Source: Polytrichum commune
Taxonomy: Eukaryota; Streptophyta; Polytrichopsida; Polytrichales; Polytrichaceae
NCBI GenBank assembly: GCA_950295325.1
Contig: OX485808.1
Coordinates: 27,674,527 to 27,738,526, forward strand
Reading direction: 5' to 3'
DNA: 64,000 nucleotides
How positions within the stretch are numbered: position 1 is the first letter of the stretch; each line of letters starts with the position of its first letter. Of this stretch, positions 13,616 through 64,000 are shown in pieces. A model generated the notes under the pieces. The model searched no databases, was not told where the DNA came from, and saw only the letters and a list, made by a program, of their open reading frames with translations. Made by a program: the position numbers and the translations under genes.

Positions 13616-13631
13616 CCAACACCGGTCATAA

Positions 13632-14518: not shown

Positions 14519-14835
14519 CCAACACCGGTCATAACGTTGGAATGAATATAAGTTGCAACGATGAATTTGAATCTACGGTGGAAGTTGTGCAGACTCCGGA
14601 GCCTCGCAATGAGAGTGTCAGTGGCAGCAATTCATGATGGACTTCCAATAACACTTCCATTGTATCTTTTGTGTGTAACATTAAATGAGGTTGCTACCTA
14701 CTAACTACTTACATCTCATAACTTTTGTTGATAACAACGAAAGTATCAGCCTTTTTGAGGTTGCGGTGAAGACCGTGCACCCAAGTTTTGATTGGTAACC
14801 GCATAGTGTCTCGACATATATAGTGACCGGGGAGA

Positions 14836-15125
14836 TTTTTGGGCATAATCGGTCAAGATCCTAATGTTTCCAAGTCCAACCGGTTACATGTTGACATCCT
14901 CCAGTTTTCTTTTATTAAATAGGGGTATATTCCATAGATTCCTCTAAAATGATCAGTAATTTTCATGCAGTTTTGAAATTCAACTTGTTATTTTTGAAAT
15001 TCAAGTGGTTCATCTGTAACTAACTGCCTGTTCTCCCTGATCATTGGTCTCGACATAGTGACCGGGGAGATTTTTTGGGCATAATCGGTCAAGATCCTAA
15101 TGTTTCCAAGTCCAATTGGTTCATG
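14836..15125 (+). repeat. Family E repeat, copy 3 plus partial duplicate
   Basis: A full family E copy is followed by a second partial copy. The 'agtgaccggggagattttt...ataatcggtcaagatcctaa' segment appears at about 14,820 and again at about 15,058. The second copy is cut by the TIR element starting at 15,132. Confidence 0.6.
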
Positions 15126-45254: not shown

Positions 45255-45904
45255 GCCACATCAGTGGCATTTTTTTTGCTATTTAGGTGTGCATTGGTGG
45301 TCAATTATTTCATGTTATGTATCTTGGTACCTTGGTAAAAGTGTCATGTGTCCATTCATATAATTTTTTTTGTCCAATTCTAATACTAGACGTTCCTTTT
45401 ACGTGTGGCCGTGAGTATATGTATATTTGAACATGTTTGGTGCCACATGTAAAGTTGGGCAATTGCTATTCAATACATATTTGGTTCTATTGGTACACAT
45501 TTGAACGATGAGTGTGAGGAAAAAAATTGGGATCGTTTCGATTGATTCTTGTTGTCATTTTCATTCCTTGATCCTAAGGTGAACAATTAAGACAACAATC
45601 CTGAATGTTCTTTAAGGAATCAAAAGGATATCTTAGATGACCCTATTCCTTCTAAATTAACTTTGTCAGTGTACTCGATATGGAGTATGAAATGTAGGTA
45701 TGATCCAAAATATGCTTCACAATACAAATCTAAGCATACCAAACATGTGAAGTTATCCAAAAAAGTCCGTTGTATATGCTAAAACAAACACTACAAATAG
45801 CAAAACAACTATTTTGCCACCCAATGAAAATTGTCAAGAGCCATGCCAAAACCATTACCCACCATGCACACTAAAACAATAATACATTGTAACATAACAG
45901 AGAG

Positions 45905-45943
45905 AGAAAAACTTCGGTCTCCGGAGGAGACCGACGTGAATTA
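45905..45943 (-). other. LINE 3'-terminal hairpin
   Basis: On the minus strand, ATTCACG is followed by TCGGTCTCC-TCC-GGAGACCGA, a perfect 9-bp stem with a 3-nt loop, then GTTTTTCTCTCTCTG. Its position next to the element's end suggests it is the template signal recognised by the reverse transcriptase. Confidence 0.7.
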
Positions 45944-46171
45944 GGTGTTTGTTCGATCCACCTCCAATCCGATGCCCACAAGACAAAGGTATGAAAGTAC
46001 AGATCTACTCCTCCCTTTCGAGAGTAGACACTATAGTCACCAGTCACTAGTAACAAAAATCATAATGGTTAGTTTACAGGTGTTATTAATGTGAGTTTGG
46101 TTGCTAGGGCTCTAGTGCATTGTTAGCGGATGGAGTAGAGTGGCTTAGTTGTTAAGGCTTTATGACTTTAT

Positions 46172-46690
46172 CTATGGGGGTTCTAGTGTTTGGGGTAGCG
46201 GTTGGTGGTTTTCTATTCTTCTTTTGTGGAGGAGGATAGACATGGCATATTTTATAGCGATGGTATTGATGTTTTTAAAGGTATTTTTAATGGTTGGCAA
46301 GGGTATTTTAAATTGATTTTCGAGTGCTTTCATTGATGGGATGTGTGTAGTGGCTCTGGCGCCTGCAGTGATTATAATGAGGGGGTCAACTTTCCATCCT
46401 CTAGTAACAATACTATCGATTAATGGTCTGTATTTTTCTACTTTTTGCTTCAAGTGTTTCTGATGAGAATCTATCATTACAGTATGTGAATTCGATGAAT
46501 TGTATGGTGAGGTTGGGGTCTGTGTCTGTGGGGGGTCATTTTGGTATGGTAGTCCTCTAACACAAAGGATGTCAGGTCCAAATCTGGAGTTACAATGGCA
46601 TCTTTGTGTACTGCATGTGCAAGGGAGTAGCCAGTTGGGAACGGTGTTTTCTTGGGGTGTGTTATTGAAGGTGCCAGCATTCATGAGAAT
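46172..46690 (-). pseudogene. LINE C-terminal PD-(D/E)XK-like nuclease domain
   Basis: Downstream of RNase H, the protein has a cysteine cluster (CTCSTQRCHC...PDILC), then IQFIEFTYCNDRFSS, a one-base frameshift at an A-run near 46,446, then KYRPLIDSIVTRGWKVDPLI followed by IITAGARA. The pattern E-F-T ... K-Y-x-P-L ... G-W-K-V ... G-x-R resembles restriction-like endonuclease domains found in some LINEs. The truncated copy at 13,632-14,518 keeps the same motifs. Catalytic residues are inferred, not proven. It ends at TAA near 46,172. Confidence 0.55.
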
Positions 46691-47107
46691 ATAACATCAA
46701 GATTTTTCGGATGAGATAAGTAGCATCCTAATTTCCCATACTGCTTTGTTGTGTCTTTTGACGTGAAGTGAATGTATATGTTGTTGTTTACACGTAAGTA
46801 GTACATGTAGCTATGTATCCAGTTCGTACGAACTACAAATGGGGCATGTAATAGAGGGATATATTTGCCTACCAAAGAACAATTGTTTTCGAGCATTATC
46901 CATATAAGTTCCGGTTCGGAATTCGATGAGGCATGATTTTTGTTTGTTTGTGATTTCCGGGTTTTCCTAGAATTCATTAGAAAGTTCTTTGTCTATATCT
47001 GCATTTCCTGTCCATTTGTATGTGTTAGGGGTTTGTGTAGCCATATTTTCCAAGTTATTTTCCCTATCATATTTTATAATTTGTTTTTCTAAGAATCTAA
47101 CGGGGTC
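46691..47107 (-). pseudogene. LINE linker with zinc-knuckle-like motif
   Basis: The region links RNase H to the C-terminal nuclease-like domain. It contains CPICSSYELDTQLHVLLTC, a C-x2-C...H-x4-C pattern also seen, diverged, in the copy near 14,420. In-frame stops are TAA (near 47,109, after VPD) and TGA (46,697-46,699). The TGA falls at the same alignment position as a TGA in the 14.3-kb copy. Confidence 0.6.
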
Positions 47108-48008
47108 TTAATCAGGGACGTCCGCCATTGAGGCCCAGACGTCCTTTTGGTAATAGTATGGGGTAGCATGGGCATGCTCATATGGGTGAATGGCAATTTT
47201 GTGTTCTAGTTCTAGACCATCTTTTGCCAATTTATCTGCTTGTTCGTTGCCGTCAATGTTGACGTGTGCTCTAACCTTGTATAATGTGATTGGTTGTGTC
47301 CGGTTTTGAAGTAGTTGTACCATGGTGGCGAGGGTGGTTTGGTCGGGGTGGCTATTATGCAGTGTCGGATGTTTGATTTGTGTGTTAAGTAGGTATAATA
47401 CATTTAGACTATCGGTAAATATGTATGCGGGTTCGTTTGGGTATAGTGTATTAATAATTTTTACTGTTTTATGTATAGCTATCATTTCTGCTCGTAGTAT
47501 GTTTTGGTGTCCGTGTAGTCTTTTGGAGATGTTAAGGCCTTTAGGGCTATAGATTCCGTACCCAACTCTTTCTCTCCTCCATTCTCCAGGGTTAATTTCT
47601 TTGGGTTTCATAAATGAACCATCTATATAGTAGCTGAATTGAGGGTGGAATTTTAGTGGTAAGTTTGTTTGGTAATTTGGGGGTTGTGGGATAGGTATGT
47701 TATTGTTTATGGGTGTGTTAGGATAGTTTGATTTAGCCCATTTTTTGCTAGGATTAACGGCGGTATTTGAGGGGGTGGGTGGTGCAAATTGCGTGTGAAT
47801 TTGTAACATTTGGAGGTTTTTTGCTATGTCGGTAAGTTGGTTCATCTGTTCGTAGGTGCCGATGTGGTTGTTTTGGTGGTGAATACAAAATATTCGTAGT
47901 GTTGATACTTCTTTCCTCGTGATATTGAGTTCGGGGGGTATTGTGGGTTCTTCGTATATGATGGTATATGCGGCAAAGTGGGCAATGATGTGTGTGTCGA
48001 GGAATGGG
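47108..48008 (-). pseudogene. LINE RNase H domain
   Basis: RNase H removes the RNA strand after reverse transcription. The frame is open for about 300 codons and shows the full catalytic set: YYIDGSF (D), LRAEMIAI (E), IFTDSLNVL (D) and HVNIDGNEQADKLAK (H and D). The region before it is a proline/asparagine-rich linker. On its 5' side the frame meets the MULE insertion at 48,009. Past the insertion it continues, in register, into the retroelement at 57,900, so the present ATG-started frame near 48,031 is an artefact of the insertion. Confidence 0.8.
48000..48008. repeat. 9-bp TSD of the MULE, left copy
   Basis: AGGAATGGG, identical to 57,892-57,900 on the other side of the element. A 9-bp duplication is characteristic of Mutator-like transposition. 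Confidence 0.9.
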
Positions 48009-48217
48009 GGCCGGGGATTCGTGGCACTCAAGTAAAATCATCCGTAGAAGCTCATTCATCTTATTGAATGAGATCAACCACTTTTAGAATGACCCTTATG
48101 GTGTCGGCTCCTTGTCTCAAGGTGACTAAACTTTTGTGTCTAAAACCATCTCAACCTAATTAAAAGGGTGTTGATAAATACAAAGTTTTGTACACCTAAA
48201 ATTGAGTGCCTAGTGTA

Positions 48218-48335
48218 GAGCAAGTGGATGAATCATGGGTTGGCAACCCATCACTATTAGTTGGGATATTTTTAAGAGCAAGTGGGTGCATCATGGGTTG
48301 CCAACCCATCACTACTCATGCGGTTATTTTTAAGA
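48218..48335. repeat. 58-bp tandem pair inside the MULE
   Basis: Two units begin 'gagcaagtgg' at 48,218 and 48,276. Each carries the imperfect palindrome 'atgggttggcaacccat'. No coding role is evident. Confidence 0.8.
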
Positions 48336-48986
48336 GATTAGCATGTCATTTTATTAAGCCATTTAAGGCTCCTTGCCCCCTCATCCTCTCATCTTTGTGT
48401 GAGCTGCTCTTCCCCCAACCTCCCGGGTTCTTCTCCCCCCTCTTCATTATTTCTCTTACACTCACTTTTGTCATACTCTCACATTCTCTCTCACATCACT
48501 CACCTTGCATTCATTTTGGCAATGTATTGTTTAGTGTATCATAGCTTAGCAATTGCAAAGTTGAAATGTAGGGAGAAAATGTTAGCACTCAACTTTTTTG
48601 AAATCTTGCAACTTGTATTTTGATCTATGAAATCATTTTTCTTCTTGTATATATAATGTTGTGCATTTGCTTAGACTAGGTGCTCAATGTATTAGACCTT
48701 GGCCTTGGAATTGTTGTAGTGCTAAATGGATGTAGTAATTTTTACCTTTGTTGGTAAAAATTGACATGTACAATAAACAATTATAGCGTTGTGAAATTCC
48801 AAATGGTAAGTGACATGTGGTAAACATCATATTTAGTGTAGCAGTCGGCTCTCCCAGTTCATAGGTGTAAGATGTGAAAAACAAGAAAAGGGAGGGGTGG
48901 CTCGTTATTTAAGTACTTCAAAATATAGGTAATCTGGCAGTGGCCCTGTCACTCACTAGCTTACTTCATAGCTCTATGCAGACAGA

Positions 48987-49355
48987 TTAGTACAGACACA
49001 AAAAAAAACACCAAACAGCTTCCCATTCGCTCTTTCCTCGAGAGCCCAGTTTCCTGCCTGCCTCCAGGTAGTCGTCACAAGTAGCTGCGCGATCTGTGTA
49101 TAGTTCCCTTTTTAGTTCCTCCACGCTTTCTGCACCTGTGAGTGGTGAGGAGTAGTAGTAAGTTGTTGTCATATTGTTGTTGCTCATAGTACTCACAGTA
49201 TTAGCTTCAGAGTTCGACGTTCTGACATCCGGGCTGGTGACAAGGAGCAGAGTGTGAGATAATTGTTGGACCAAGAGCAGCAAGCTTCTAGTCCTTGTTG
49301 TTGTTTCGTTCTTTGTGGTTTCGCTGCACCCCATAGGTATTTTGGAAGTGTCCAT
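48987..49355 (-). other. Possible small ORF in MULE, low support
   Basis: A 122-codon frame contains a hydrophilic stretch (GAESVEELKRELYTDRAATC) with ordinary composition, preceded by low-complexity Thr/Tyr runs. No domain is recognised. It could be captured host sequence or chance. Confidence 0.25.
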
Positions 49356-49710
49356 ATTATGCCCAACTCACATTTTAGTCTCTAGTTTGACACTCTTTCA
49401 ACCAGGTAGTATCCCGCACGAAGTCGGAGAGTTTTTGATTCGTTTGTCAGGTCCTCTCTGTACATGTTATACATCTATCCAACCTTGCGGGGTTACTATA
49501 TTTTACTGTCTTAGAATGTAGCCCATGTGGATGTAGACATTCGTTCATTTCTCATGCTATCTATCTTCTTCTGCTTTTGTGAATTCAAACTGCTATGTGT
49601 CACACACTCATACTTTGGACATACTTGATTCTTAAAGTCAACCTGCTCATCTGTAACTAATCTCTGGTTCACCATCATCTCTTGTTGAGGCAACGGGAGA
49701 GAATAATGCA

Positions 49711-50535
49711 ATGGATGATGAAGAACAAACAAATTACATCCCAATGGATGAAGATGAAGTTTCCGAAGGTTTACCGCATCTACGGGAAAGTGAGCTCCCC
49801 GTCGACGGGGTTGCTCAATTGGATGTACATTGGGCTATTCGAGGAGAAGGCGCTCGGAAGAAGTTTCATTGTCTTTGGGTGAAATGCAAAAGAAATTATG
49901 TAAGTAACAAAAACTAAAAAAATATTTAATTAATGATCATTGTTTTCTTGATGTCGAAGGAGGTGGTAAAAGAGGAAGACCACGAATGCCGGGGCCCACG
50001 AGGACGCGTTCAACCACGGTGGAGGAGAATCGCATGAATAATCTTCGGGCTTTATCCATTCCGGTTGCCCGGCTAAAACGTCAAGACGCGAAGGCCAAAT
50101 CTAGATGGGTCATCGCCGCCGAACGACAATGGGAGAATATGCTTCGAAATGCAGCTGAGAATCCCTTGCCAGATGAATTGCCCCCCCTCGCCATGTTTTT
50201 AATCCGGTCAGTCAAAACTAATTTTGACTTTGCCACGTGGGGTGATGTTTTTTTTGATCCTGCCACATGGACGGCCTTCAAGCGAAGCAAATCCATTCGG
50301 AACCGGATTGCGAGATCAAGATTGCCATACATGTCTACACTTGCATCCGCGTTTTCGCGCCCGTCTTCGCGCATCTTCTTCGAGCATTCGCGCCCTCAAA
50401 GCGGAACGGGCCGCGGCATTGGCTCGTGAAACGTAATCCCGAGCAAGCGACGATGACATTGACTGGAGAGCGCCAAGTCCCGAAAATAGTGACGAAGCTA
50501 ACTCGGTGGACGACGAAGAAGAAGAAGAAATAACA
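49711..50535 (+). pseudogene. MULE accessory ORF with AT-hook-like motif
   Basis: The first segment (49,711-49,906) is acidic then basic (DVHWAIRGEGARKKFHCLWV) and ends at a strong GTAAGT donor. After a short spacer, a second segment starts near 49,957 with GGGKRGRPR, an AT-hook core, and continues as a basic, tryptophan-containing protein. Near the end it is frameshifted. The closing acidic segment (DDDIDWRAPSPENSDEANSV, then a Glu run) follows a TAA at about 50,431. Its transcription would converge on the transposase gene, as mudrB converges on mudrA in MuDR. I cannot assign homology to MURB or any other family. Confidence 0.45.
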
Positions 50536-50639
50536 TTAGGAAACTAGGAATTGTGGAATTTTCGAGCATATATGTATTGTTTTAAAATATAAATAAATAA
50601 TTTTATATTATTTCTAAATAAATATTCATTTTTTAATTA

Positions 50640-51470
50640 TTTTCCATATAATTTATAATTTATAACATAACAATACCTTATCCATCATTATTATCATTTT
50701 GCATTTCTGAAGATAAACATATGGATAAGGTATCGATAACAAATATCGTATGGTTGAGGTTTCTAAGATAGGGTATAGTCACCAACTATTCAATTTCTGA
50801 GTATATCCTATCATTATTTTTCATATTATCTTTAAAATGTAACATAACGATACCTTATCCATAATTATGATCATTTTGCATTTTTGAAGATAAGTATATG
50901 GATAAGATATCATTATGTTATAAATATCATATGGTTGAAGTTTCTAAGATAGGTTATAGTCAGTAACCATTCAATTTCTAAGTATACCCTATCTTTGTTT
51001 TTCATATTTTCTTTAAAATGTAATATAACGATACCTTATCCATAATTATGATCATTTTACACTTTTGAAGATAAGTATATGGATAAGGTATCGATCACAA
51101 ATATCATATAGTTGAAGTTTCTGAGATAAGGTATAGTCAGTAACTATTAAATTTTTGAGTATACCTTATCATTGATTTTCATATTATCTTTAAAATGTCA
51201 CATAACGATACCTTATCCATATTTATGATAATTTAGCTTTTTGGAAGATAAACATATGGATAAGGTATCGATCACAAATATCATATAGTTGAAGTTTATA
51301 ATATAGGATATAGTCAGAAACTATTTATTTCGTGAATATACCTTATCCTTTTATTTTACATATTATCTCTAATATACAAAGCTAAGATAGTCTATCCATA
51401 ATTATCATCATTTAACATTTTAAAGATAAGACTAGGGATAAGGTATTGTATACAAAAACAGTGATGAACA
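50640..51470. repeat. ~178-bp tandem array of palindromic units
   Basis: About 4.5 units start near 50,673, 50,849, 51,031, 51,208 and 51,387. Each of the first four contains the inverted pair ATACCTTATCCAT ... ATGGATAAGGTAT separated by ~35 bp, able to form a hairpin. The fifth is diverged. The same CCTTATC/GATAAGG motif recurs through the rest of the MULE (e.g. 52,618, 54,166, 54,503, 54,679, 56,860, 57,030). Confidence 0.85.
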
Positions 51471-51602
51471 CATGAAAACTAACAAAATAAAATCAATATA
51501 AAATTTTATTACATATGATGCTAAATATCTTCACCAATTGTAATAAACATCAAAATCATATATACGATTCTAATAATAATCATAAATATCATAAATATAA
51601 AA

Positions 51603-54441
51603 CTAATTATTTTCACTAAGGGTTACATGAACGAGGTCTTTTCGAAAGCATTCTTTCATATCACCCTTGTTTTCTACGAATTGAATTACCCATACCCTAT
51701 CCATATTCTCGAATTGAATGTCCGGATGAAGAGTGCCTTGGAAATCCGCGAGACACAACTCCGACATTTTATTCAACAACACACGAAATTCGAAAATAGC
51801 ATGCTCGGCGATTCGTAGTCTGTGCCTTTCAATCAATCTTTGAAATTTCTTATAATCCTTTGCGTGCTCTTTAATAACTCTTGCATGAAGAACATCTTCA
51901 TCCACTTCAATCACCTGATTCTCTTGTAAAGATTCCATCCCAATTTCCAAATCATCTAGATTAGGTGTTGCATCGTGATTCGTGTCGGTTGAATCAATGA
52001 TGATATCTTCATCCAATCCATCTTTGTCACAAAATCATCTCTCTGTTTTAAACATCTCAAATAATCCTCCACGAATCGTCCCGTAATATGTGCCACAATA
52101 TTCAACTATGGCATTTTGATCTACATCTATAGTTTCAAAATTATTGCGGCTTGATGTTTGCAAAAATTTCCTCGGATTGCATTCTCACAATCACAACACG
52201 CATAATCACGATGAGGGTATGTAAGTGAATACCAATTCTCCGGATACGTTGCGCTTCAATATATCCAATGTGCTCGTTCATTGGTCGGTTCAAGAATCCA
52301 TTCATCGTCGATGGAGTAAGACAAATTGACACTTTCTCGAACCTTGAGTGTCATGATTTCATTCTTGATAAATCCCGCTTTCTTCATTACCAAACGGTGC
52401 GTATAATGATTATGAATCGTAGTTGTCAACATTGTGATGAGCCAATCAAACCGTCGACCCCGCAATCCCTTGGTTGTGAAACCTAACCATCTCTTCATTA
52501 CTCCATGATAAGATTCTATGGATGAATTTGTGTCTTGTCCGGCATGAGGAATTCTTCTTACTTCTTTTGCCCACATAACTGTAACGCACATACTTATAGT
52601 AAGAATCTAGATGTCACCTTATCCAATATTCATATCCATGAACTTATCAATTCACTATACCTTATCATGCAAAGTAATGTCATTGTAAAGTGTTGAAACT
52701 TACATAATTTCCATATCATCCCTCAAAATATAAATCAATATTGTGAATGTCTCTTTCCAATTCGTAAGCTATTTGTTGTGTTCCGCGAACATCTATCGTT
52801 GATACAATCCGAGCTCTCCGATAGTCTTTTGCCGTATCAAGTACAAAATTTGCATTTGCCTTTGCTCGCTCAATGAAATCATTTTCGGTTTCTTTCCATA
52901 TAATATCCATATACATCACGTTCCGCGAGCCGTAATAAATCCAATCCCGATATTCCTTGTCCAATTTCATTTTCGCTAAAGCATTTGTTTTCCAACACTC
53001 CAAAACATGTCATTGACACAAATATATGGGAACGTCCTCTCCAAATACGCGTCTACATGCAAAATAAATGAATAAACATATAAGGATAACAAAATGAGGA
53101 TAGACTAAATGTAAAAAAAAATGCTTGGATAACATATTCGGATAACATATATTTTTAGACAAAAATAAGGTTGATTTTGATTTTGATTATGTAGGTTGTA
53201 AAAAAATAAAAAAATAAATTGGGATAGAGTATATTGATATGAAAGTATAAGAATATGATACACCCACCTCAAAGCGTTGTGTTCGGCTTCATCATTATCA
53301 ACAATAAAAGCATTAGGACGCCATTCCGAATGCGCCGCTGGTAATTTATCCGCCAAAGGCTTTAAAAAGACAATAAGACTCTCGGAATCTTACTTATTTG
53401 TTATAATCCACGCACCGGAAAACCCATTGCGGCAAGCATCGAACACCATAGGTGTATAGAGAAAATAATTACAAGAGTTAGTTCCAAATGTAGCATCCAT
53501 AGATATAGCGGATTTGTCACCATACTCTATCATGACATTGAATAGTTCGGGTGATTGCAAACCCAACACAAATGCCGTATTTTTGCCATCTATAAAATTT
53601 GACTATTGCAAAATGAACACATCATCTTTATTTTCCGTAATCCACGAATCAACGCTTTTTGCCTCGTCAGTGTGTCGTCGTTTCCACTTACCTCGTAAAA
53701 ATGTACGCTCAATATTTCGGATGTTCTTCAAAAGAAGAGTATCATCTTTACGCATTAAATAACCCATCCGTGATCGATCCGCAAATACTTGATGATGCTC
53801 ATCATAAATTTGATGAGCATTAAGGCCACTCTTCAACCTATTGTCAATATACGTCTTCAATGAATCCGACCATCGTATAGCAAGAGCAGAAGGGCGTGCA
53901 GATGAATCCGGATCGTACACGCCATGCGCTGGTGTTCCACCAATTCGGGTATGTTCTTAATGGAAATAGGCTATCTCTACCGTATCCGCGGGTTTAGCCA
54001 AAATCTTGATAGATTATTGTGCAAGACATGCCCGTTTATGATTTTGTCTCAACTCTTTCTTGTTTCTATGGTCTTCAGAGCCATATGAACAATGATATCT
54101 GAAATAACATATATAAATGTTAATATATAGTAATATTATAAAAAAATACATATATATGACTATACCTTATCCAAATACATATCCAAGTTAGGTATCTTAC
54201 GTGTTGTGGATCGAACTTGCTTTTGGAGGTGTGGAGGAACCTTCCGAATCTTGTGAATTGTCCAAGAAATTTCCATGCCTCCTTCACCAAATTTTTCTCC
54301 TTTTTGGAAATCATCTAAACGATCTAATGGAATGCGAACTATCTTATAAGGTCGCATTCCGCGAGTACATTTTGCCCATTGTAAATGGCGGTGGTTGAAA
54401 GTTCCCACATAGGGCGATTGGATGACCATAGAATTAGCCAT
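51603..54441 (-). pseudogene. MULE transposase, broken
   Basis: The MULE-type DDE core is clear: SMDATFGTNSCNYFLYTPMV, then FSGAWIITNK, then EWRPNAFIVDNDEAEHNALR in exon-like blocks from 53,920 to 53,275. A C-x2-x-HV helix segment lies near 53,020 (LCQ, TGA, HVLECWKTN). The C-terminal region (IPHAGQDTNSSIESYHGVMK, then RRFDWLI) runs from 52,591 to 52,256, and an acidic tail ends at TAA, 51,603. Introns of 150-300 bp are likely. In-frame stops interrupt the core (after ACLAQ, AYFH, FILQ and ITNK, and the TGA in CQ-HV), so no full protein is possible from this copy. Most of the stops are explicable as C-to-T changes. Confidence 0.85.
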
Positions 54442-57400
54442 AATTTCGACGATAACCTATCCTGAACAAATCACACATGTTATCCACAGATTCTATAAAT
54501 TACAATACCTTATCTAACGAGTTATCTATATTCAAACTTAACAAATATAATATTAAAATATGAAAATATCTATTAAATATATTTTTGACATGCAATTTAT
54601 AAAATATATAAAATATAACAAAATATAAATAGTCTTTAAGTCCAATATGTATGTAACTAAAAATATATTCCCAATATACCTTATCGAATGACATCATATT
54701 CCAACACAAAACAAAATGGAGAGAGAACACATACCTTGGAGGTAGTGCAAAAGAAAAATACCTTGAAAACCCTAAAATGAAGCTTATGTAGTGGGCACAT
54801 TGGATGAGAAAGTGATTAGCAAATGAAATGTAGAATCATAATCTTCATTACCTTAAACCCTAAATCCTATAACTATGCACCATTCATATAGATTATATTA
54901 TTAGATAACATCATATGATATTAATTATGTGGACTTAAACATACTATGTCTATCATTTTACAAACTTATGATAAAACTTTTAAGATAATAAAAAAAGCAT
55001 CGTAAATTAATAATTTTTAATAATTAATAATTAATTTATATTAACATATTAACATATTAATAGAAATTCATAAATATTATATATAATCTAAACGATATAA
55101 GATATACATGATAATGAATACAAGATAGACTATCTTGCTAAGTCATGCCACCTTATAAAGTGTTGATCATATATACATAATGACTTATAAGATAGGGAAT
55201 TCATAATAAATCATACTATAATGTTATATTTCTTTCTATAAAATACAGTGATCGCAAATTATATATCTATTGTTAATCCAATATGGCAGTTCATCAAATG
55301 GTTAGGTAGGTCCTTTAAATTTGAAGGTTGACCTTAATTTTTGAAGACATAATATTCAAACTTTGTAATAAATTATATCATATAAACTAACGGTCAACCT
55401 GAAAACATAATTTCTAGAGCATAAAATATATTAAGTTTAAATATTGAAAAAAAAAAAGCCTAAATTACTAAGGTTCCAAAATGATAATATTTAAGATATA
55501 ATACTTAAAGTTTAATATTAATATATCATTATATAATAAGATATCATATTGGTGTTTGTGTTTTCTTATTTGAAAAACTATTTTCTATGTAATGGTCGGT
55601 TAAGACAGGTCCCTACTCGTAAGTCCCAAAGTCACATGAGGTTAATTCATGCAATATCAACCGTTGAGAGCATGGAAATTCAAACCTACCACTTCACTTG
55701 GGGTACCAAGACTTAAGTCCAAATTTTGACATGGCACATTGCAACAATTTTTAGAGGTAAGGTTTGGGACTTGTGTTGCGAGTTGGGTCAAACCAAAAAC
55801 CAATATGAGTGGGACTTGGGATCATATGTGAAACCCTAAACCCTAATGTACATGGCTTTATTTTTCAACAAAGATGTATATTTTAGAATATGAAACACAC
55901 AATTAGTACGAGATGGTTGACAAATCGAAATCAAGTTTGAAGTCTATGAAGTATGTGAACGATGTTTGATCATGTTGTTTTCTATTTCAATCCTTTAAGG
56001 TTACAACATTAAAATTATGATTACCAAATGCAGTTGACAATGAGACATATTTTGTGTTGGAATGTTCCCTCTAGAACTCCATTAGAGATATATTTATTTT
56101 CCTATTTAATAATGATGTATTAGGTTGTCTCAAGTGTTACTTCCAAATAGACCATCGAATTGATATAATATGGTGTATCTTCTAGAATATATTATTATAT
56201 GTACCAAATGGTACTACACTTCATTACTTTAGGAAATATATTTTTTTACAACATCTTGATGTATATCTGGTGACATAAGCCTTTTAGCTTCTTATATTTG
56301 AAGACAACATTATTTCATTTTCACAAAGGTTATTGATATAAACTAAATAATACTATTGGGATGGTTAGTTTGTGGGATACCTTATTAGAAGTTGATCCAT
56401 TACTAGCACTATTGTACATTGGTCTTAATTGTTTAAATTTTCTACTAGCCCACCTCTCTTAGGATATAAAACACTCGACCAGTTCAAGGTTGCTAGCAAA
56501 TCCGAATTAAGGCTATAGCGACTTTCTTCATAATGTTTGAAACACATACAAATATAATAATCATTATCAAAGCAAATTTTTGTCCTCATCAATTGGTGAC
56601 CCTAAACTATATTCTAGAACTAAATTTGTACTAGATTATTTAAGTTTCTTTTAATTGGATGTGTTTGATGGGTTGTAAGATAGAGAATATATATTTTTAA
56701 TTAATTAATTAATTAAAATATATATACACCAAAATATGGTCATTGTGGGTCTATTTGGAATACATTTATTATTAATTTATTTGTAGTGGTAGCAAAAGTT
56801 TCAAAACGATAAATTACACAAGATTTAGGATTAATCATAAACATACAAATTACAAGATAAGGTATCTAAAGAAATCCAACAATATATTGTATCATCTGTT
56901 ATATGTAAAAGGAGTTGAGATGATGTTTTTTGGATTGAAACTAAGATAATATTGATCATCATCAAATATTATATTATTGTATCATCTATTATATGTAGAA
57001 GGAGTTGAGATGAGGGTTTCTTGTAATAACACTTAGATAAGGTATAATTGACAAAAATTATATATGAGTGTATATGTTCATTAAATTACCAAAGTGGAAC
57101 AATGAAGATCAAACATAAAATATATCAAAAAATACTATGCAAAGATAAATCTTATTTTTTTTTAAATATAATATAATGTGTAAATAAATGATATCTTAAT
57201 TGAAAATAGACTTGTGGGACAACATTATCGATGGGGTATACTCAGAAAATCCTAAGTTCTGACTATAGTCTATCCGATGCATTGTAAACATTTATCATCA
57301 TCCAATATCATATTATCTCTAAAATAATATGATTTATATTATATATTTTCAAATAAATTATATTATATTTCTCTCAATACATATGTTTAGATAATAGAGA

Positions 57401-57600
57401 AATGAAAGTATTTATTATCTTGAATTGATTTTTAGAGTTAACCAATTTATCATAAAAATACATGTCTTTTATAAAGTTAACAAATATTTGAGGAATGACA
57501 CCCGTGCAAAAAAGAAAAGTTGTAGATTTTTTTATAAAAAAATGGCTATGACGACACTTCGTAACCATTTATCACATGTTGCACACGTTGACAACTTGCA
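54442..57600. other. AT-rich interior and end of the MULE
   Basis: Very AT-rich, with no gene supported. A family R-like fragment lies near 56,490-56,620, and telobox-like 'aaaccctaaaccctaa' near 55,830. Paired 'gtaccaaatgg'-type and 'atattattgtatcatctatt' repeats occur near 56,880-57,010. At 57,617-57,710 the phrase 'ccaaagccacatcatggc' occurs twice, close to the right TIR. Confidence 0.5.
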
Positions 57601-57891
57601 ATATTTATCAATATAACCACGTGGAATCCAAAGCCACATCATGGCTTTGGTAACAATTCATGAGAAGTTAAAAAATAGGCTTAGAGCATCCAAAGCCACA
57701 TCATGGCCCCTTGTCAACTAATTGATATTTATAAAATAGCTAGTAGTTCATAATAGCTATGAGGGAACAAGGGGCTCTTACGTGCCAACTCGTAGGTGTT
57801 TCACTAAAGTAAGCTCCATCCGAGCTCCTTGATGGACTCATCCGATTTTTGTTACCGGATGACTTTACTTGAGTGCCACGAATCCCCGGCC

Positions 57892-57900
57892 AGGAATGGG
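57892..57900. repeat. 9-bp TSD of the MULE, right copy
   Basis: AGGAATGGG, identical to 48,000-48,008. Beyond it the LINE coding sequence resumes. Confidence 0.9.
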
Positions 57901-60480
57901 CTAGTGTATGGGTTAAAGTTATGGTACCAATCAATATCTTTTGAAATAAGTAAAGTGATTGTATTTGGGTTGGTTTTGGCCGCAATGCGGGCCCAGTGGA
58001 TGGTTTGTTGTAAGTCTGTTGTGTTGTGGGGGTGGGCGTAACCAATTCCCTTCCATTTTTGGTCGAACACTTTTCCTAATGATCCAAATATTCTATCCCT
58101 AGAGAATAGTGAGTAGAATTGGGTGAATTGTGTGGGGCATGTGACTGGGGATGAGAAATATGAGTGATTGATTTTGAATGTTGTTATTAGGAAATTTAGT
58201 ATTGAGGTTGGTATTGTATATTGGGCACGTTTTAGTGGGTCGTTTTTAGGAATACGGTATTTATATCTTTGGTATAGCCAGACGATTTCAATTTCGAATG
58301 ATTGGGTGGGTGGTTCTAGACTATGTGGGGTATTTTTAGCTAGGTGGTATTGTTTCTATAACCACAGTAATCTGTTTTTTGGGATGGTGATGAGGTGTCG
58401 TCCATTGTCTTCGTATATATGTGCGACGTCAAATTGTGTTTGAATAGTATTAGTGTTTGTTTCGATGTCATTTTCTAGGTTACATTCATTAACGGAAATA
58501 TGTGCCAATAGGATTATTGTGGTAGGGATAACGTATCTAGTATCCCTTTGTTGTTCTGTGGAGAAATAGACATTGATAATGTTTGAGAAGTGTTTGTGTT
58601 GCATTTTTGTATAATATTGGGTAAGTAGTTCGGTGTTGTGGCGGCTAGTATTGGCGTCACAGTAGGGGAATAAGTCTCTTTGGGTACGTCATTTGTTGTA
58701 TGTATTATTATCTGGTGTAGTCCATTGGCATAGGTATGTTGTGTCTTTTCTTTTTATCTGATCAGGATCTATGAGTTGTCGTTGTTTATGATCGAGTATT
58801 GTGTGTTTTAGAAATTGACGAGGGTTATTAAGCATATTATTAGGAGGGGGGGTAGGTGGGGGATAGGGGGGTTCGGGGGGTGTATAGGGGGGGTTGGGTG
58901 TTGAGGGAAGATGGTATGGTTTGTGATTGTGTAATCATTCTTTAGGGTTCGTGGAGGATAGTAGTGTGGGCATGGTAGGTGACATTCTTGGTGACAGGAA
59001 GGGTGACAAAATAATTGATTCGCAATGTTTAATGCACTCTTGACGAGTTTTGTAGGCTTGGAGTAGTATCTTTTAAAGTCGTTTGAGTTCATTAAGTTGG
59101 TGCCATTAGGTATGATTATTTGTTCTAATTTTATTATATTGTGCAATAGGAGTTTTTGTAATAGTTTGAGTAGTTGTTGTAGTTGTTCTCCGATGCAACG
59201 TAAATAGGCATTCTATAGTGAGAATGCTTCAATTCCGAATAGATCTTGTGGGAGTTGTGTAGCAATATTAGGGGTGCTTTTTGGTAATCCGCATATTGTT
59301 TTATGGAGTGCTATAATTTTTTTATCAAGTTTTTTGATAGCCGGAATGGAGAATGGTACTGTGTAAAAGCTATAGGCTATTCCAGCACGTATAACTGTAT
59401 CTGCCATGTTGATTTTTTGTTTCATGGTGGTTGGGCATGCTAGAAGGGCTTGACATTGTTTGATAACTTTAGCTATAGTGGTATTTATTTGTGTTTTTCA
59501 TTTAAATGATGGGGCAAGGTTTATTCCAAGATAAGTGTATGGTTCGTGTTGGTTTAAGACTGATAACGGTTGGCTTCTATAGTTTATATTGGTCGATTGG
59601 ATCAGAGATTTGATTGTTATGGGATTCATTTTAGATTTGTTAGGGCATCTGGTCACTGCACATTTGGATATACCGAGGTCCATTAATGTCCATTCATAGA
59701 ATTTGTCTAATTTTTTTAGTTGTATTTGTAATGATTTTAGTTTGTTAGCAATTGCTCCTAAGTCATCGGCATATGTTGCAGATGAAATTTTTACTTTGGA
59801 TGTTCCAAAGGTGTATCCATTGTTGCCTTCTTGTAACCATCTAAGGAGGGGTTCTAAAAATATTAAAAATAGGTATGAGCTTAGAGTATCTCCTTGTATT
59901 GTACCTCTTTGAATGGAAATAGATAGGGTTTTACCAAAGTATTCTCCAAGATATATAGTAGAAGATTGTAAGTATATATTTCCGATGACTTTATGGCGTC
60001 GGTTGGATACCCAAGATCTTTCATTACAGCTAAAAGTATTGCATGGTCAATGGAGCCGAAAGCGTTTTTGAAGTCGATGTAGAGGATATATATATTTTGG
60101 TTCGTAAATCTTGCGTCTTCAAGTGCTGCAATGATGAGTTGAAGTTGTCTGGATGTTCCTCTTTCTGCTCTGAATCATTTTTGGCTATTATGTAGTATTT
60201 GGTATCTTTCACCATAAGTAGAAATGATCGAGGTTAACGTGCTTGTGTATAATTTATATATGGTGTTAGCTAGTGCAATAGGTCTATGGTTAGTGAGTTG
60301 TGATGGGTCACCTTTCTTATATAGTAAAAATGTTAGACTACTTTTTCATGATGCGGAAATTTATTTTTGTTTGTAGCAGTGTTTGAAGAATAGAAAGAAT
60401 AATTTGTATACGTGGAGGCATATTTTTTAGGATTGAATTAGGAATTTTGTCTGGTCCTGGGGCTTTGTTGTTTCCTAGGT
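57892..60480 (-). pseudogene. LINE reverse transcriptase and connector
   Basis: Reverse transcriptase makes the cDNA at the nicked target. The sequence runs NNKAPGPDKIPNS (near 60,460), FLLYKKGDP...NHRPIAL, FRAERGTSRQLQ, YILYIDFKNAFGSIDH, IQRGTIQGDTLSS and ATYADDLGAIA with the YADD catalytic aspartates (near 59,780). A long connector follows to NPYTSPF at the MULE junction. One frameshift lies in a C-run region around 58,830-58,900. In-frame TGA codons lie at 60,346, 60,175, 59,498 and 58,689, TAA near 60,364, and TAG near 59,211 and 58,353. Four of the TGAs sit where the motifs call for tryptophan. Confidence 0.85.
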
Positions 60481-61538
60481 TTTGAGGCAGAAGTCGTATG
60501 TTTCTTGATCAAAGTATGTGTGTAAGGGGGTTTTGGGTTCTTAACGTTGGTCAATCGTAAATCCTTCTAAGTCATGCCATGGATATTGCCTAACGCCATA
60601 TGTGCAGTGCGGTGGGTGAGTGTTTTGATAGTGACATGTGGGTACGGTTGGACGGTTATTGATAGATTGTTTAATGTATATTTCTTTTGCAATATCTTCA
60701 GGGTTAGTTAGGATATTATTTTGTCTATCCGTGATGGAGTCGAGGGGTGAGGTTTCAGACTGTTTAAAGACTTTTCTATTTATCTTTTTGGGATTTTTTT
60801 CGTACATTTGGCGGTATTTTGATACAGCTTTTAGAATACATTTTTTGGTGTATTTTGTGGTGATTTTTCTGGATTCTTTATTGGCGGTTTTTGCGATAGC
60901 AGCTATGACGTCAATCCATTCCTTTGGGTGAGTGGTTGTTGTAGGTGGATGTGAGATTTGCACGTGTTGGTGGTTGCGGATTTCATTTAAGATGGGGTGA
61001 ATTTGCCATTGTGGGTTGTTTTTTGCAATGTATATAGTTTTTCTGATAAGATAGTATGTGTCGAGGTGTTTTTTCCATTCTTTGGATATTTTTCGTGGTA
61101 GAAACCCCCTTGTTGTGTTGTTCTGGTTGTAAGGGTTGGTATTGGGGCTGCTTTGCAGGTATTTTCAATGGATACTGAAAATTTTCCTACAATGTTGTCT
61201 AATACTATACAGGCTTCTTGCCATTGATCAAGGGTGAGGTGGTTGTGGTTCTCTAGTAAGTTGGTAAGTTCGTTTAGTTGCATGGAATTTGGTTTAAAGA
61301 ATTCTATATTGAATTTTTCTAAGTTTTCCAGTGGGATCGGATTAAGTATTCTAGTTGGAGTAATATTTACGGGGGATGGTGGTCTAGCTATAAGTGTGTT
61401 TTGGGGTATGTGTAAGGTGACTGGGTAGTGGTCTGAGTTTAGATTTATGTTTGTGTTTGTTGTAGAGGTAAATCTGCTGTTGTCTGGTGAGTTGATATAG
61501 AAACCGTCTATAAAGCTAGTTGACGTGTAATTATAACC
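60481..61538 (-). pseudogene. LINE linker between endonuclease and RT
   Basis: The region continues the polyprotein from the endonuclease to the RT. It contains SFIDGFYINS, LDQWQEACIVLDNIVGKFS, then after a one-base frameshift at a G-run near 61,107, ISKEWKKHLDTYYLI and PKEWIDVIAAIAKTANKESR. A TAA at 60,541 follows TIDQR, and another frameshift precedes the RT. There are no catalytic motifs; this is the usual basic, helical spacer of LINE polyproteins. Confidence 0.7.
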
Positions 61539-62653
61539 TCATTGTCTGGAAAAGTTAGTATTCGTTGGGATATATTCTAGATTGAGGGTTGTAGTGAAGT
61601 TTTTCCATTGGATGTCTTCTTCTTGTAGTGGCGTGTTATTGTTGTATTTTGTCTTCCAGTGAGTGCAATATCTCTGTAAAAATGGCCACATAGGATGTGT
61701 ATGTGGTTTGGATGTGCAATTATTTGGTTGGTGATTATGGTTTTGAGGTAGGGAATGAGGTGGGTGTCGTCTAAGTGTGTGGGCATATACATGTGTATGA
61801 TTAGCCATGGTAGAAGTGGATGGTTGTGTATTTTTATTATTTGTAGATAAGGGGAGATGTTTGCTGGTGTGGGTATCTTGGTAATGTTTCCAGGAAATGC
61901 ATATTTGTTATGAATGAGGGTGAGTAGGCCACCTCTTCCGGGGGTGTAAGGCATTCTTTGCTGTATACATCTTGTGAGGGCGTGTGTGTTGTTAAAAATG
62001 AAATTGTATTCAGAGAATTGGTTGTAAATGTATTTTGTGGATTTAGTTGCTATAAGTTTGGTTTCTTGTATATTTATAATTGCTATGTTTCTAAAGGAAT
62101 GATTTATTAAGCTTTGTAAATTTGGTAGGGCTGTGTTAAGCGATGAGGCATTCCAAGTTATTATGTTTGTTTCGTGGTTAATGTTTGTAATGGTTCTTGG
62201 GGCTAGTGTGGGGGTGTTTGGAAGTGGAGGTGGGTGTGAGTATTCATGTATGTTTTCTAAGCACTGGAGTGACTCGGTAATCAAATTTTCAGGGAGAAAG
62301 GGGAATTTCCTTTGGAGTGTGGTTAGTGTAGGTGGAGTCTCTTGGTTGTGAATAAATTTATATAATTCAGTATGTATAGAGTTTTTGGGATGTATTATGT
62401 CTTGGTTATTTTCAACAAATATTGTGTATGGGTGTTGTGTTAGAATGTGTCGCTCGGGGGGGTTGTTAAGGTTGGCTAGTCTAATGATTAGTGTGTTGGT
62501 CCATATGTTGTTAAAGTGGTAAATGCGGGGTTGGGATATGATGTTATTGCATATGTCTATTGAGGGGTTTATAGTAATGATTAAAGCGTATAGTATGTGA
62601 GTTGGTTGGGAATGACTTTGTGTTTGGATATATTGATGTAAGTGTGAATACAT
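61539..62653 (-). pseudogene. LINE AP-type endonuclease domain
   Basis: AP-endonucleases nick target DNA to prime reverse transcription. The frame shows IITWNASSLN (catalytic Asn), INIQETKL (Glu), GRGGLLTLIHN and WLIIHMYMPTH (Tyr). The expected GDFN block reads CGHFYRDI, so an Asp and an Asn of the active site appear mutated. A one-base shift follows near 61,640, and the frame then ends at TGA (61,539) in SRQ-TGA-GYNY. The ~150-residue N-terminal part is an ungrouped, proline-rich leader. Confidence 0.75.
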
Positions 62654-62814
62654 AATGGTTGTTTGGTGGTGTAGTGGGTGATTATGTCTTAGTATGGGAG
62701 CGAATGTGTTTGCTATGTATTGGTATTCCGGTTGTAGTTTATCGTGTTTGGGATAAAATATGTTTTGGCTCTTTTTTTATGTGTAGCGGGGTGTGTGCGT
62801 AAAATATCAGACAT

Positions 62815-62844
62815 TGGTCCGGGGTTGGGTTCTATATCTCCACA
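62815..62844 (-). other. 2A-like peptide motif (CGDIEPNPGP)
   Basis: Ten codons read CGDIEPNPGP, matching the D-[VI]-E-x-N-P-G-P consensus that causes ribosomes to skip a peptide bond between Gly and Pro. It lies between the ORF1-like segment and the endonuclease segment, the usual place in 2A-bearing LINEs. Single-base shifts separate it from both neighbouring frames in this copy. Confidence 0.8.
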
Positions 62845-63103
62845 TTATAAATATTGTTAATTTATTGATGTAGTAGTATCCGTGGAGTTGGAGTATTTTT
62901 GGTTTTTTCTTATTCATTTTGTGATATATATTGAGTATGGATTTAGTTGTATTAAAGGGGTTGGGTAAGGCGGGTATTAAGTCTTTAGGTATGTGATTTG
63001 TTATTGTGTTGGATGTCCAGTTGTTTGTGAGTTGGTATATGTTTTTAGTTTTGTGGCGAGGCCGGGAGGCCGAGGCCGTTTTATTATTCGTGAGTGTGAG
63101 CAA
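62845..63103 (-). pseudogene. LINE ORF1-like segment
   Basis: A frame from 63,103 encodes a basic, asparagine-rich protein (KTKNIYQLTNNWTSNTITNH, then KKPKILQLHGYYYINKLTIF) leading directly toward the 2A-like motif. One base is apparently missing just before the motif (near 62,845). No zinc knuckle or RRM is visible in this short part. The nucleic-acid-binding role is inferred from position. Confidence 0.45.
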
Positions 63104-63299
63104 TTCGCCCTCCCAGGTGTATAAGGCATTCGTTGGCGGTATTTTGTATGTTTATTAATGGTTGTGTTGTTTGTTTGGTTATTATTTTTGACGTGTTTGG
63201 TTAGTGGTTTTGTTTTGATTTTTATTTGTGTTTTAATTGGAGTATTGAGTATTGTGATTGTTATCTTTATATGTATTTTTTGTATGGTATATAGTATTA

Positions 63300-63700: not shown

Positions 63701-64000
63701 TTAGTTTATCGCCATTAAATCCTCCTTGTCGCTTGATGAGTCTTCTTTGTCGAGCATTTCCGAGGAGTCCAAGGCTGCCATGATTTTGCTGAGGCCTTGT
63801 CGGAGTGTAGCCATTTCTTTTTTGAGGGCCCTAGTTGCTTTTTCTGCAGCGTACGCTGCAAAAATTTTCGCTTGGCTTGTTAAGCAAGTCTCCATGGTTT
63901 GCATCTCATCTCTTACTGTAGCGGTCCCTTTGGCCACAGCTTCCTCGACCATTTGGTGTATATCTTTCTTTCCTAGTCCATTGGATGGGGCATTCTCCAT
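63701..64000 (-). CDS. Acidic coiled-coil ORF, edge of window
   Basis: The frame of 99 codons begins with ATG exactly at the window edge and may extend beyond it. It encodes a predicted coiled coil (KKDIHQMVEEAVAKGTATVR, then EMATLRQGLSKIMAALDS) and an acidic tail, and stops at TAA. Its base composition is much GC-richer than the adjoining LINE and minisatellite. It could be the first ORF of the retroelement (a gag-like protein) or part of a different gene. Position favours the former, composition the latter. Confidence 0.45.
   Translation of the reverse strand: MENAPSNGLGKKDIHQMVEEAVAKGTATVRDEMQTMETCLTSQAKIFAAYAAEKATRALKKEMATLRQGLSKIMAALDSSEMLDKEDSSSDKEDLMAIN

Follow-up and report, generated by a model that had tools for sequence, protein, structure and literature searches.

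The window, a 64,000-nucleotide stretch of genomic DNA from the moss Polytrichum commune, contains one decayed LINE, which runs along the minus strand from position 64000 to ~45898 and is interrupted by a 9.9-kb DNA transposon (Table 1). The inverted repeats of the transposon are 97% identical and directly adjoined by the short direct repeats. None of its frames found a match in the Pfam scan, and we take the insert to be MULE-like, going by its 9-bp target-site duplication (TSD). DNA alignment to the L006/L001 copy revealed that the LINE coordinates resume across the insert with an 8-base overlap, and that positions 46173-48008 correspond to positions 13218-15053 of that element. Most of the distance between the reverse transcriptase (RT) and RNase H is therefore inserted transposon rather than LINE.

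Table 1. Features of the window; limits in nucleotides of the window
Feature	Position	Strand	Basis and remarks
ORF1, C-terminal end	63704..64000	-	continues past the window; translation by eye resembles the ORF1 end of an intact copy
2A-like (StopGo) sequence DIEPNPGP	62816..62838	-	both strands searched by pattern; lies a short way before the endonuclease part of ORF2
AP-endonuclease (APE) domain, decayed	61320..62164	-	limits estimated from translation; GDFN changed to GHFY, frameshift
Reverse transcriptase with YADD, frameshifted	59260..60610	-	intact relatives aligned; outer limits estimated
PCIF1-like domain, first part	57892..58355	-	PF12237; NPPF position reads AHPH
Inserted TIR DNA transposon, not LINE	48009..57891		36-bp inverted repeats and 9-bp direct repeats
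PCIF1-like domain, remainder after the insert	47780..48008	-	DNA alignment to the L006/L001 copy; lower limit estimated
RNase H domain	47213..47632	-	PF00075, E 3.1e-13
CCHC knuckle and restriction-like endonuclease (RLE; PD...E-F-T...KxxKY), frameshifted	46175..46992	-	alignment of intact copies; fold match; motif spacing
LINE 3' end: CT-rich tail and terminal hairpin (hairpin 45909-45943)	45898..45943	-	hairpin found in other 3' ends
Second-lineage 3' fragment, CCHC and RLE only	13734..14572	-	tblastn; translation; genome-wide family

The RT matches PF00078 (E 1.3e-10) at 59501-60046 of the minus strand. This match and that of RNase H bear out two domains assigned by an earlier reading made without database searches (the sequence-only reading). 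The APE block that it described is readable in translation, with no Pfam match in the window. Its distal domain is present as well; in the copy at 46 kb, a frameshift separates FIEFTY from KYRPL...GWKV, and the relatives have the domain in a single frame. The second copy that it reported at 14 kb does contain an RLE, yet it comprises only the CCHC/RLE end and shares 40% identity with the 46-kb copy over 165 aligned positions (tblastn); it is a 3'-terminal piece of a second lineage. The PCIF1-like domain, the 2A-like sequence and the ORF1 tail of Table 1 had been missed by that reading.

Intact copies elsewhere in the genome

Full-length ORFs were read at nine loci, seven of which were kept, chosen for open length; left out were L032, whose frame is in three pieces, and L036, whose main frame stops before the RLE. 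Two further loci, L002 and L003, are repeats of L001 and were not counted. The seven intact ORFs, all from the same genome, span 2305-2924 aa and represent both lineages. In these proteins ORF2 is organized as a 2A-like sequence (6/7), APE, RT, PCIF1-like domain, RNase H, CCHC knuckle and RLE, and RNase H (PF00075) was detected in the window, L001, L004, L029 and L032. These domains uphold the proposal of the sequence-only reading that a streptophyte LINE carries two endonuclease types plus RNase H in a layout related to Dualen/RandI.

Another 20 copies (L009-L028), mostly with open frames, were hand-picked from at least 150 PF12237 rows. Together with L001, L004 and L005, this set includes 12 copies spanning the PCIF1-like region, 16 spanning the RLE and 21 spanning RNase H. 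After near-identical rows were dropped, alignment A1 consists of 12 of the 16 RLE copies and alignment A2 of nine of the 12 PCIF1-like copies. Searched with one RLE query, the genome yielded 4,869 first-look candidates; at least 150 of them were scored as matches, the weakest listed at E 1.3e-77, so the RLE match is more than chance. With a 201-base 3' query, the best 40 of 1,659 candidates were all at least 99% identical; both totals are first-look candidates rather than copy counts. ORFs of 2625 aa occur at three loci, whose long matches to one another share 99.3-99.5% identity.

The two endonucleases and the 3' ends

The APE motifs TWN, QETK, YMP, GDFN, IDG and SDH and the RLE motifs PD, E and KxxKY are present in all seven intact ORFs, which is partly a selection artefact because these ORFs were chosen for open length. 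The APE scored above the Pfam cut-off in L004 (Exo_endo_phos, E 1.3e-5) and L029 (Exo_endo_phos_2, E 9.7e-8), and that of L001 had no Pfam match at E up to 1. Against solved structures, the APE profile gave weak matches, with a best E of 0.0062.

In the RLE, PD, E and KxxKY are invariant in 12 aligned sequences and also kept in L029. The residues at the catalytic positions are PD, E and the first K of KxxKY, and the region also has RH and CCHC, arranged as described for LINE RLEs (PD, E, KxxKY, RH, CCHC) in the accessible text of PMC5678591. The RLE profile found no match among PDB sequences. The predicted RLE model is of low confidence, with a mean pLDDT of 42 (block means 51-82, residues 211-280). 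Structural similarity search using VIA-align placed 7ojn_L first (Z 5.5, RMSD 3.4, 91 aligned) and also returned R2Tg (9dou_A; Z 4.2, RMSD 4.3, 89 aligned); Z values up to 5.5 fall in a range with chance matches, but the list is more consistent than that of Foldseek, which gave E values no lower than 0.018 and a mixture that included unrelated folds. The VIA-align rows belong almost all to families known as PD-(D/E)XK nucleases. Since these Z values lie within the chance range, the residue pattern is ranked first. Pattern first and weak but consistent fold match second, the evidence supports a putative PD-(D/E)XK endonuclease, as the sequence-only reading had suspected.

Nei-Gojobori dN/dS, computed by script from single copies, was 0.07-0.19 for APE, 0.09-0.17 for RLE and 0.11-0.17 for the PCIF1-like core in four within-lineage pairs. 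Between-lineage pairs gave higher values of 0.35-0.43 for APE, 0.41-0.42 for the PCIF1-like core, 0.32-0.45 for RNase H and 0.24-0.34 for RLE; dS is ~0.6-2.6, near saturation, in L001/L004 and the lineage-B pairs, and infinite for RT in L029/L033. The motifs of the intact ORFs and within-lineage dN/dS of 0.07-0.19 indicate that both endonucleases are under purifying selection and hence maintained. An exchange of endonuclease use in progress, as once suggested for this element, is therefore not supported. A chance RLE motif was rejected on the invariance of the residues and the dN/dS of the RLE.

A hairpin is common to seven distinct 3' ends. The 12 fetched 3' ends of the L001 subfamily had the highest scores among 40 and include the L001 copy itself (as L039); all 12 terminate in a (CTAT)n tail. 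L028 and the window have CTT- or CT-rich tails. For comparison, the tails given for RandI families in PMC3747384 (Table 3) are (ATT)n or (CTATTT)n. TSDs of 10-12 bp were identified in L048 by script and in L003 by eye, and the script found none in L002. One fixed insertion target was rejected, as the 12 3' flanks differ by eye and have no obvious common sequence.

These insertion features bear on whether the RLE cuts at all. It might be a nuclease-dead structural or DNA-binding remnant in an element that is functionally L1-like, with the APE doing all the cutting; we regard this as somewhat unlikely. It would agree with the lack of a common target by eye in the 12 flanks, with the TSDs of two copies, which resemble those of APE insertion, and with the mostly site-specific behavior of RLE elements (PMC4640811). 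A pure scaffold, however, would not need PD, E and the first K of KxxKY, which are unchanged in the 12 RLEs and the 7/7 ORFs.

The 2A-like sequence and the PCIF1-like domain

DIEPNPGP is the sole match to the 2A pattern on either strand of the window. In six of the seven intact ORFs, a 2A-like sequence lies 212-228 aa before the TWN motif of the APE. By the core definition (D/G/C/N)(V/I)ExNPGP, taken from an excerpt of PMC12846837, the core is canonical in the window and in L001, L004 and L034, which are three of the seven intact ORFs. The glutamate is replaced by K, H or Q in L005, L029, L032, L035 and L036, and the core is missing from the L033 frame. ORF1 matched no Pfam family. A programmed frameshift joining ORF1 and ORF2 was rejected, as the shift differs among copies (-1 in L006/L001, -1 in L007/L004 and +1 in L008/L005).

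The PCIF1-like domain sits between RT and RNase H. In the window it matches PF12237 with E 1.5e-11 (44.6 bits against a cut-off of 31.1); L001 (E 3.6e-10), L004 (2.9e-12) and L032 (3.4e-8) are also above the cut-off and L029 (3e-6) is below it. It shares this profile with the cap-adjacent m6Am methyltransferase PCIF1, but differs in that NPPF is replaced and the domain is embedded in a retrotransposon protein. The catalytic motif NPPF is found in none of 34 rows, which represent 33 different copies because L052 and L004 are one and the same, and its position reads HPH, HPP, HPY, HLH or FPT, with L027 reread. PCIF1 structures gave a weak sequence match (E 0.081 and 0.16), and the structure prediction of the region is poor (pLDDT 39). 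The domain is conserved in both lineages, with NPPF gone. No PCIF1-like domain is described for any LINE in the open-access literature searched.

Classification and proposed insertion mechanism

We interpret the element, with a probability of roughly 0.83, as a moss non-LTR retrotransposon of the Dualen/RandI type, with ORF1 and an ORF2 that has a 2A-like sequence and carries APE, RT, PCIF1-like domain, RNase H, CCHC and RLE, which would insert by target-primed reverse transcription from the hairpin and repeat tail and leave 10-12-bp TSDs. The placement in the Dualen/RandI clade would fit its architecture and microsatellite 3' tails. As far as the available sections of these papers go, a single Dualen/RandI element carries endonucleases of both types (PMC4640811, PMC3636483), Dualen/RandI is among the RNase H carriers (PMC4640811), and RandI is listed only under green algae (PMC3747384, Table 3). 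Shared with Dualen/RandI are the N-terminal APE, C-terminal RLE, RNase H and a 3' tail of short non-A repeats; the moss host, the PCIF1-like domain and the 2A-like peptide are different here. A possible further difference is the cysteine protease that the original Dualen report is said to include: Pfam matched none in ORF2 or the scanned parts of ORF1, where a divergent one is possible.

In an unrooted tree of 12 rows, the RT is separated from L1 at 100/99 and lies on the R2 side; as to L1, this does not speak against the sequence-only reading. The L1 rows are human L1 and two L1s of the same genome; all three are long, and the composition of one deviates. Among solved structures, the best match of the RT profile is an R2 chain (E 1.4e-32). 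The element shares with R2-group LINEs the CCHC followed by the RLE (PD...E...KxxKY) with an upstream RH, but differs in having APE, RNase H and two ORFs, and in showing no fixed target in 12 copies. With an APE alongside the RLE, it is not an RLE-only LINE of the R2 type.

Plant L1s share with the element two ORFs, an APE and an RT, and RNase H is often present in them too (PMC9033089). That the element is one of these L1s, with a C-terminus that resembles an RLE by chance, is extremely improbable and was rejected on the RT tree. The element also differs from plant L1s in its RLE, a tail that is not poly(A) and the lack of a zf-RVT match, whereas the two control L1s have zf-RVT (below the cut-off in L031) and no Pfam match to PF12237 or RNase H. 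Its PD, E and KxxKY in every intact ORF and its RLE dN/dS of 0.09-0.17 also argue against chance.

It is distinctly unlikely, though less so, that the element forms a new clade of LINEs, either a sister group of Dualen/RandI or independent from it, in which APE, RNase H and RLE were combined separately in streptophytes. The RT identity of only 20-28% to the R2 and L1 rows, the missing Pfam match to a cysteine protease, and a PCIF1-like domain and 2A that go unmentioned for Dualen in the literature portions consulted point that way. Against it, the unusual domain trio, the microsatellite tails and the position of the RT, which falls to the R2 side when compared with L1, fit Dualen as described. 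Within the same open-access portions, the land-plant occurrence, the PCIF1-like domain without NPPF and the 2A-like sequences are new. No related RT was confirmed in the viral and prokaryote contigs scanned, and a protein search of plasmids gave no useful match.

For the Dualen/RandI-type element, we propose that the 2A-like sequence, if active, parts the ORF2 protein from a poorly conserved N-terminal leader. Target-primed reverse transcription would start at the hairpin and short-repeat 3' tail and leave 10-12-bp target duplications without obvious target sequence. The two endonucleases may share both strand cuts, for example one priming on the first strand and the other cutting the second, and the PCIF1-like domain without NPPF might act by binding RNA or by holding the element's own transcript at its cap.

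A more speculative and rather unlikely extension is that a land-plant LINE captured a PCIF1-type fold before the two moss lineages split, lost NPPF, and kept the fold to read the capped 5' end of its own RNA. Full-length transcripts would thereby be selected for retrotransposition, and of the two strand cuts one would fall to APE and one to RLE. If true, the element would be a non-LTR retrotransposon that recognizes caps and divides the cutting between its two endonucleases. The PCIF1-like domain would link mRNA-cap biology and LINE retrotransposition. The position of Dualen has served as an argument that APE replaced RLE in the origin of APE LINEs (PMC4640811). Constraint on both endonucleases lets one ask if carrying the two is a lasting solution rather than a transition, and the moss lineage, with thousands of first-look candidates, some near-identical, would be tractable for studying the role of two endonucleases.

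Separately, a cellular PCIF1 in this genome was considered as a source of the domain and rejected, although such a gene could escape the search through its introns or through divergence. A 91-aa piece of human PCIF1 gave four weak matches. Of the three best, L051 ranks first and carries the LINE motif YAHPPN, the next is the copy L004 and the third coincides with the top PF12237 row.

Composition of the LINE and its relatives in the genome

Translation of the minus strand from 64000 to 46175 gives, in order, an ORF1 end, an AP endonuclease (APE)-like region, a reverse transcriptase (RT), an additional domain, RNase H and a distal domain, with the coding domains dispersed among multiple frames. 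In the window, Pfam detected RVT_1 (E 1.3e-10) and RNase_H (E 3.1e-13), gave an unexpected hit to PCIF1_WW (PF12237; E 1.5e-11, 44.6 bits versus a cut-off of 31.1), and matched no APE family in this copy. Frameshifts have put FIEFTY and KYRPL out of frame with each other, and GHFY occupies the GDFN position of the APE; given these lesions, the 46-kb copy looks dead. Its lower limit in the sequence-only reading is borne out by the terminal hairpin and CT-rich tail that sit there. That reading had also reported a second copy at 14 kb; both copies are present, but the latter comprises only the CCHC/restriction-like endonuclease (RLE) end, which is 40% identical to the former over 165 aligned positions.

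The PCIF1-like domain of the 46-kb copy is split by 9,883 bases that carry 36-bp inverted repeats (97%) with adjoining 9-bp direct repeats at the ends, and the LINE coordinates resume past this insert with an 8-base overlap. Since both ends are bounded by repeats and the LINE coordinates are continuous, a TIR transposon landed later inside the LINE. From the 9-bp duplication we take it to be MULE-like; six of its open frames, scanned against Pfam, matched no family. Elsewhere in the window, two pairs of long inverted repeats are 94-95% complementary and 10.8-12.6 kb apart; they perhaps mark the termini of a further DNA transposon, or a foldback. In addition, exon-like open frames translate into protein kinase sequence (HLDLKPDN, GDARYMP), possibly from a Wee1-type gene to judge from the motif.

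Features of the window (window coordinates)
Feature	Position	Strand	Remarks
Terminal hairpin of LINE	45909-45943	minus	followed by CT-rich tail
TIR transposon, 9.9 kb	48009-57891		36-bp TIRs, 9-bp TSD
Long inverted repeats	31704-31882 / 42651-42829
Long inverted repeats	30982-31073 / 43663-43754
Kinase-like open frames	20561-22597	minus

In the 407.8-Mb assembly (64 contigs), PsaB of the plastid contig has 8htu, 6l35 and 7ksq as its best PDB matches, chains of Physcomitrium patens photosystem I, and the host is on that basis taken to be a moss. In this assembly, the RLE of the 46-kb copy yielded at least 150 scored matches out of 4,869 first-look candidates, that of the 14-kb copy at least 150 out of 3,536, and PF12237 at least 150 out of 697, with 150 of 150 above cut-off. 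Of the loci elsewhere in the genome (L-numbers), L001, L002 and L003 have a single 2625-aa ORF apiece, with long matches 99.3-99.5% identical. The ORFs of L004, L005 and L035 are 2919, 2924 and 2663 aa long, and those of the second lineage (lineage B) 2372 (L029), 2305 (L033) and 2422 aa (L034); L001, L004, L005, L028 and the 46-kb copy belong to lineage A. RVT_1, RNase_H and PCIF1_WW were all found in the L001, L004 and L029 ORFs. PF12237 passes its cut-off in L001, L004, L032 and the window and falls short of it in L029 (E 3e-6). Exo_endo_phos is above cut-off in L004 and Exo_endo_phos_2 in L029, and Pfam found no endonuclease family in the L001 ORF. In two control L1s of the same genome, Pfam finds APE, RT and zf-RVT, with zf-RVT below cut-off in L031; both lack hits to RNase H and PF12237.

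Full-length ORFs were read at nine loci and the seven intact ones compared, leaving out L032 and L036 as broken. The APE motifs TWN, QETK, YMP, GDFN, IDG and SDH and the RLE motifs PD, E-F-T and KxxKY are kept in all seven, which were picked for open length and picture likely source copies, not their frequency. The basic observation of a dual-endonuclease LINE stands.

The distal domain and selection on both endonucleases

Alignment of 12 distal domains revealed that P213, D214, E241, K257, K260 and Y261 are invariant, preceded by a CxxC...H...C knuckle and an invariant R-H; the more distant L029 retains the invariant residues. In the pattern described for LINE RLEs, the knuckle is CX2-3CX7-8HX4C, RH opens the first helix in R2Bm, and the catalytic lysine, which is displaced, corresponds to the first lysine of KX2KY (PMC5678591). 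In the moss knuckle, nine residues precede the H, one beyond that range.

The AlphaFold model built from the alignment is of low quality overall (pLDDT 42), with higher block means of 51-82 for residues 211-280, where strands and helix follow the expected order. Structural comparison of residues 150-285 using VIA-align returned cap-snatching endonucleases, Hjc, Bax1, FAN1, a Cas4-family protein, type II enzymes and R2Tg, nearly all of which we take to be PD-(D/E)XK nucleases. The best row, 7ojn_L, has a Z of 5.5 with an rmsd of 3.4 over 91 aligned residues, and R2Tg a Z of 4.2 with an rmsd of 4.3 over 89, values of a size that chance can give. The best Foldseek E was 0.018, and the distal-domain profile matched nothing among PDB sequences. 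Because Z is low, Foldseek weak and the profile search empty, the residue pattern is the main evidence for an RLE and the fold a consistent addition. The proposal of a restriction-like distal domain is thus supported by the LINE RLE residue pattern, with a consistent fold comparison (Z at most 5.5).

Nei-Gojobori ratios were calculated for pairs within lineages.

Nei-Gojobori ratios by domain for within-lineage pairs
Domain	L001/L005	L001/L004	L029/L034	L029/L033
APE	0.07	0.17	0.19	0.19
RT	0.07	0.07	0.06	undefined
PCIF1-like core	0.11	0.14	0.15	0.17
RNase H	0.06	0.20	0.11	0.07
RLE	0.12	0.17	0.12	0.09

The leader upstream of the 2A-like sequence gave 0.57, 0.75 and 0.48 in the three comparable pairs. 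Between-lineage ratios are higher (e.g., 0.35 and 0.43 for APE, 0.24 and 0.34 for RLE), with dS near saturation. As judged from coding sequence, the low within-lineage ratios indicate that APE, RLE and the PCIF1-like core are all maintained, which argues against the earlier suggestion of an exchange of endonuclease use in progress.

The PCIF1-like domain and a 2A-like sequence

The PCIF1-like profile retrieved from the PDB, at E up to 10, only two PCIF1 sequences, both weakly (0.081 and 0.16). Disruption of NPPF reduces PCIF1 activity (PMC6318281). At this position lineage A has YAHPH, YAHPP, YAHPY, YGHPY or YAHLH and lineage B has LAFPT; NPPF occurs in 0 of 34 rows (33 different copies). Because none carries the motif, N6-adenine methyltransferase activity seems unlikely. 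Its preservation by purifying selection implies a different function, and the domain might bind RNA or cap.

The 2A core reads (D/G/C/N)(V/I)ExNPGP (PMC12846837), and 2A-like sequences are known from LINEs of trypanosomes and other species (PMC4981915). The moss elements have DIEPNPGP in L001 and the window, DIETNPGP in L004 and DIELNPGP in L034; K, H or Q replaces E in L005, L029, L032, L035 and L036, and the L033 frame has no 2A-like core. Six of the seven intact ORFs carry the motif, in each case starting 212-228 aa ahead of the APE TWN. When the initial 500 residues of L001 were shuffled, DIxxNPGP arose in 1 of 20,000 trials. The oriented ORF of L032 has DIQPNPGP and DIHPNPGP at residues 101 and 255, ~154 residues apart in one frame, which suggests that the leader was duplicated.

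RT position, element ends and affinity

In a midpoint-rooted RT tree of 12 rows with two reference clades only, the seven moss dual-endonuclease RTs cluster together (100/100), as do, separately, human L1 and two moss L1s (100/99), with two R2 rows on the dual-endonuclease side of the L1 split; the tree program flagged excess length in the three L1 rows and a deviating composition in L031. Against the PDB, the RT profile scored 105-116 bits for three R2 chains versus 67-70 bits for L1 chains; two further chains, presumably R2Bm, reached only 64-68 bits. The scores agree in part with the tree; together, they count against L1 and are consistent with a Dualen-like position.

The best-scored 12 of 40 3' ends, one being the L001 copy itself, end in GACCGGAGTTT(CTAT)n followed by differing flanks, and seven distinct ends share a terminal hairpin. 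Tails of other subfamilies are CTT- or CT-rich (L028, window). Dualen/RandI elements carry both endonuclease types (PMC4640811, PMC3636483) and RNase H (PMC4640811); green-algal RandI tails are (ATT)n or (CTATTT)n (PMC3747384, whose Table 3 has RandI under green algae only). In a land-plant review, the LINE superfamilies of plants are L1 and RTE (PMC9033089), and a Chlamydomonas comparison terms Dualen 'comparatively obscure' (PMC8226300). In the open-access literature, searched mostly by listing, neither a dual-endonuclease LINE from a land plant nor a LINE with a PCIF1 domain came up. The moss element behaves as a LINE equipped with two predicted endonucleases and, on architecture and tails rather than a tree, is likely Dualen/RandI. 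Its land-plant host, conserved PCIF1-like domain without NPPF and 2A-like sequence go beyond the known kind.

Target duplications measure 11-12 bp in L048 (by script) and 10-12 bp in L003 (by eye; CATTCTTAAC and two further bases that also fit the tail), and none was found in L002; insertion is ordinary target-primed, without an evident target. In lineage A, the hairpin lies directly before the short-repeat tail and is likely an RT recognition element. Its stem sequence varies by subfamily (L001, L004, L005, L028 and the window), with a common predicted fold. Near the 5' end, a ~150-bp unit is repeated in L006, the stretch upstream of L001 (joined coordinates ~3482-3674), and is perhaps a 5' repeat promoter.
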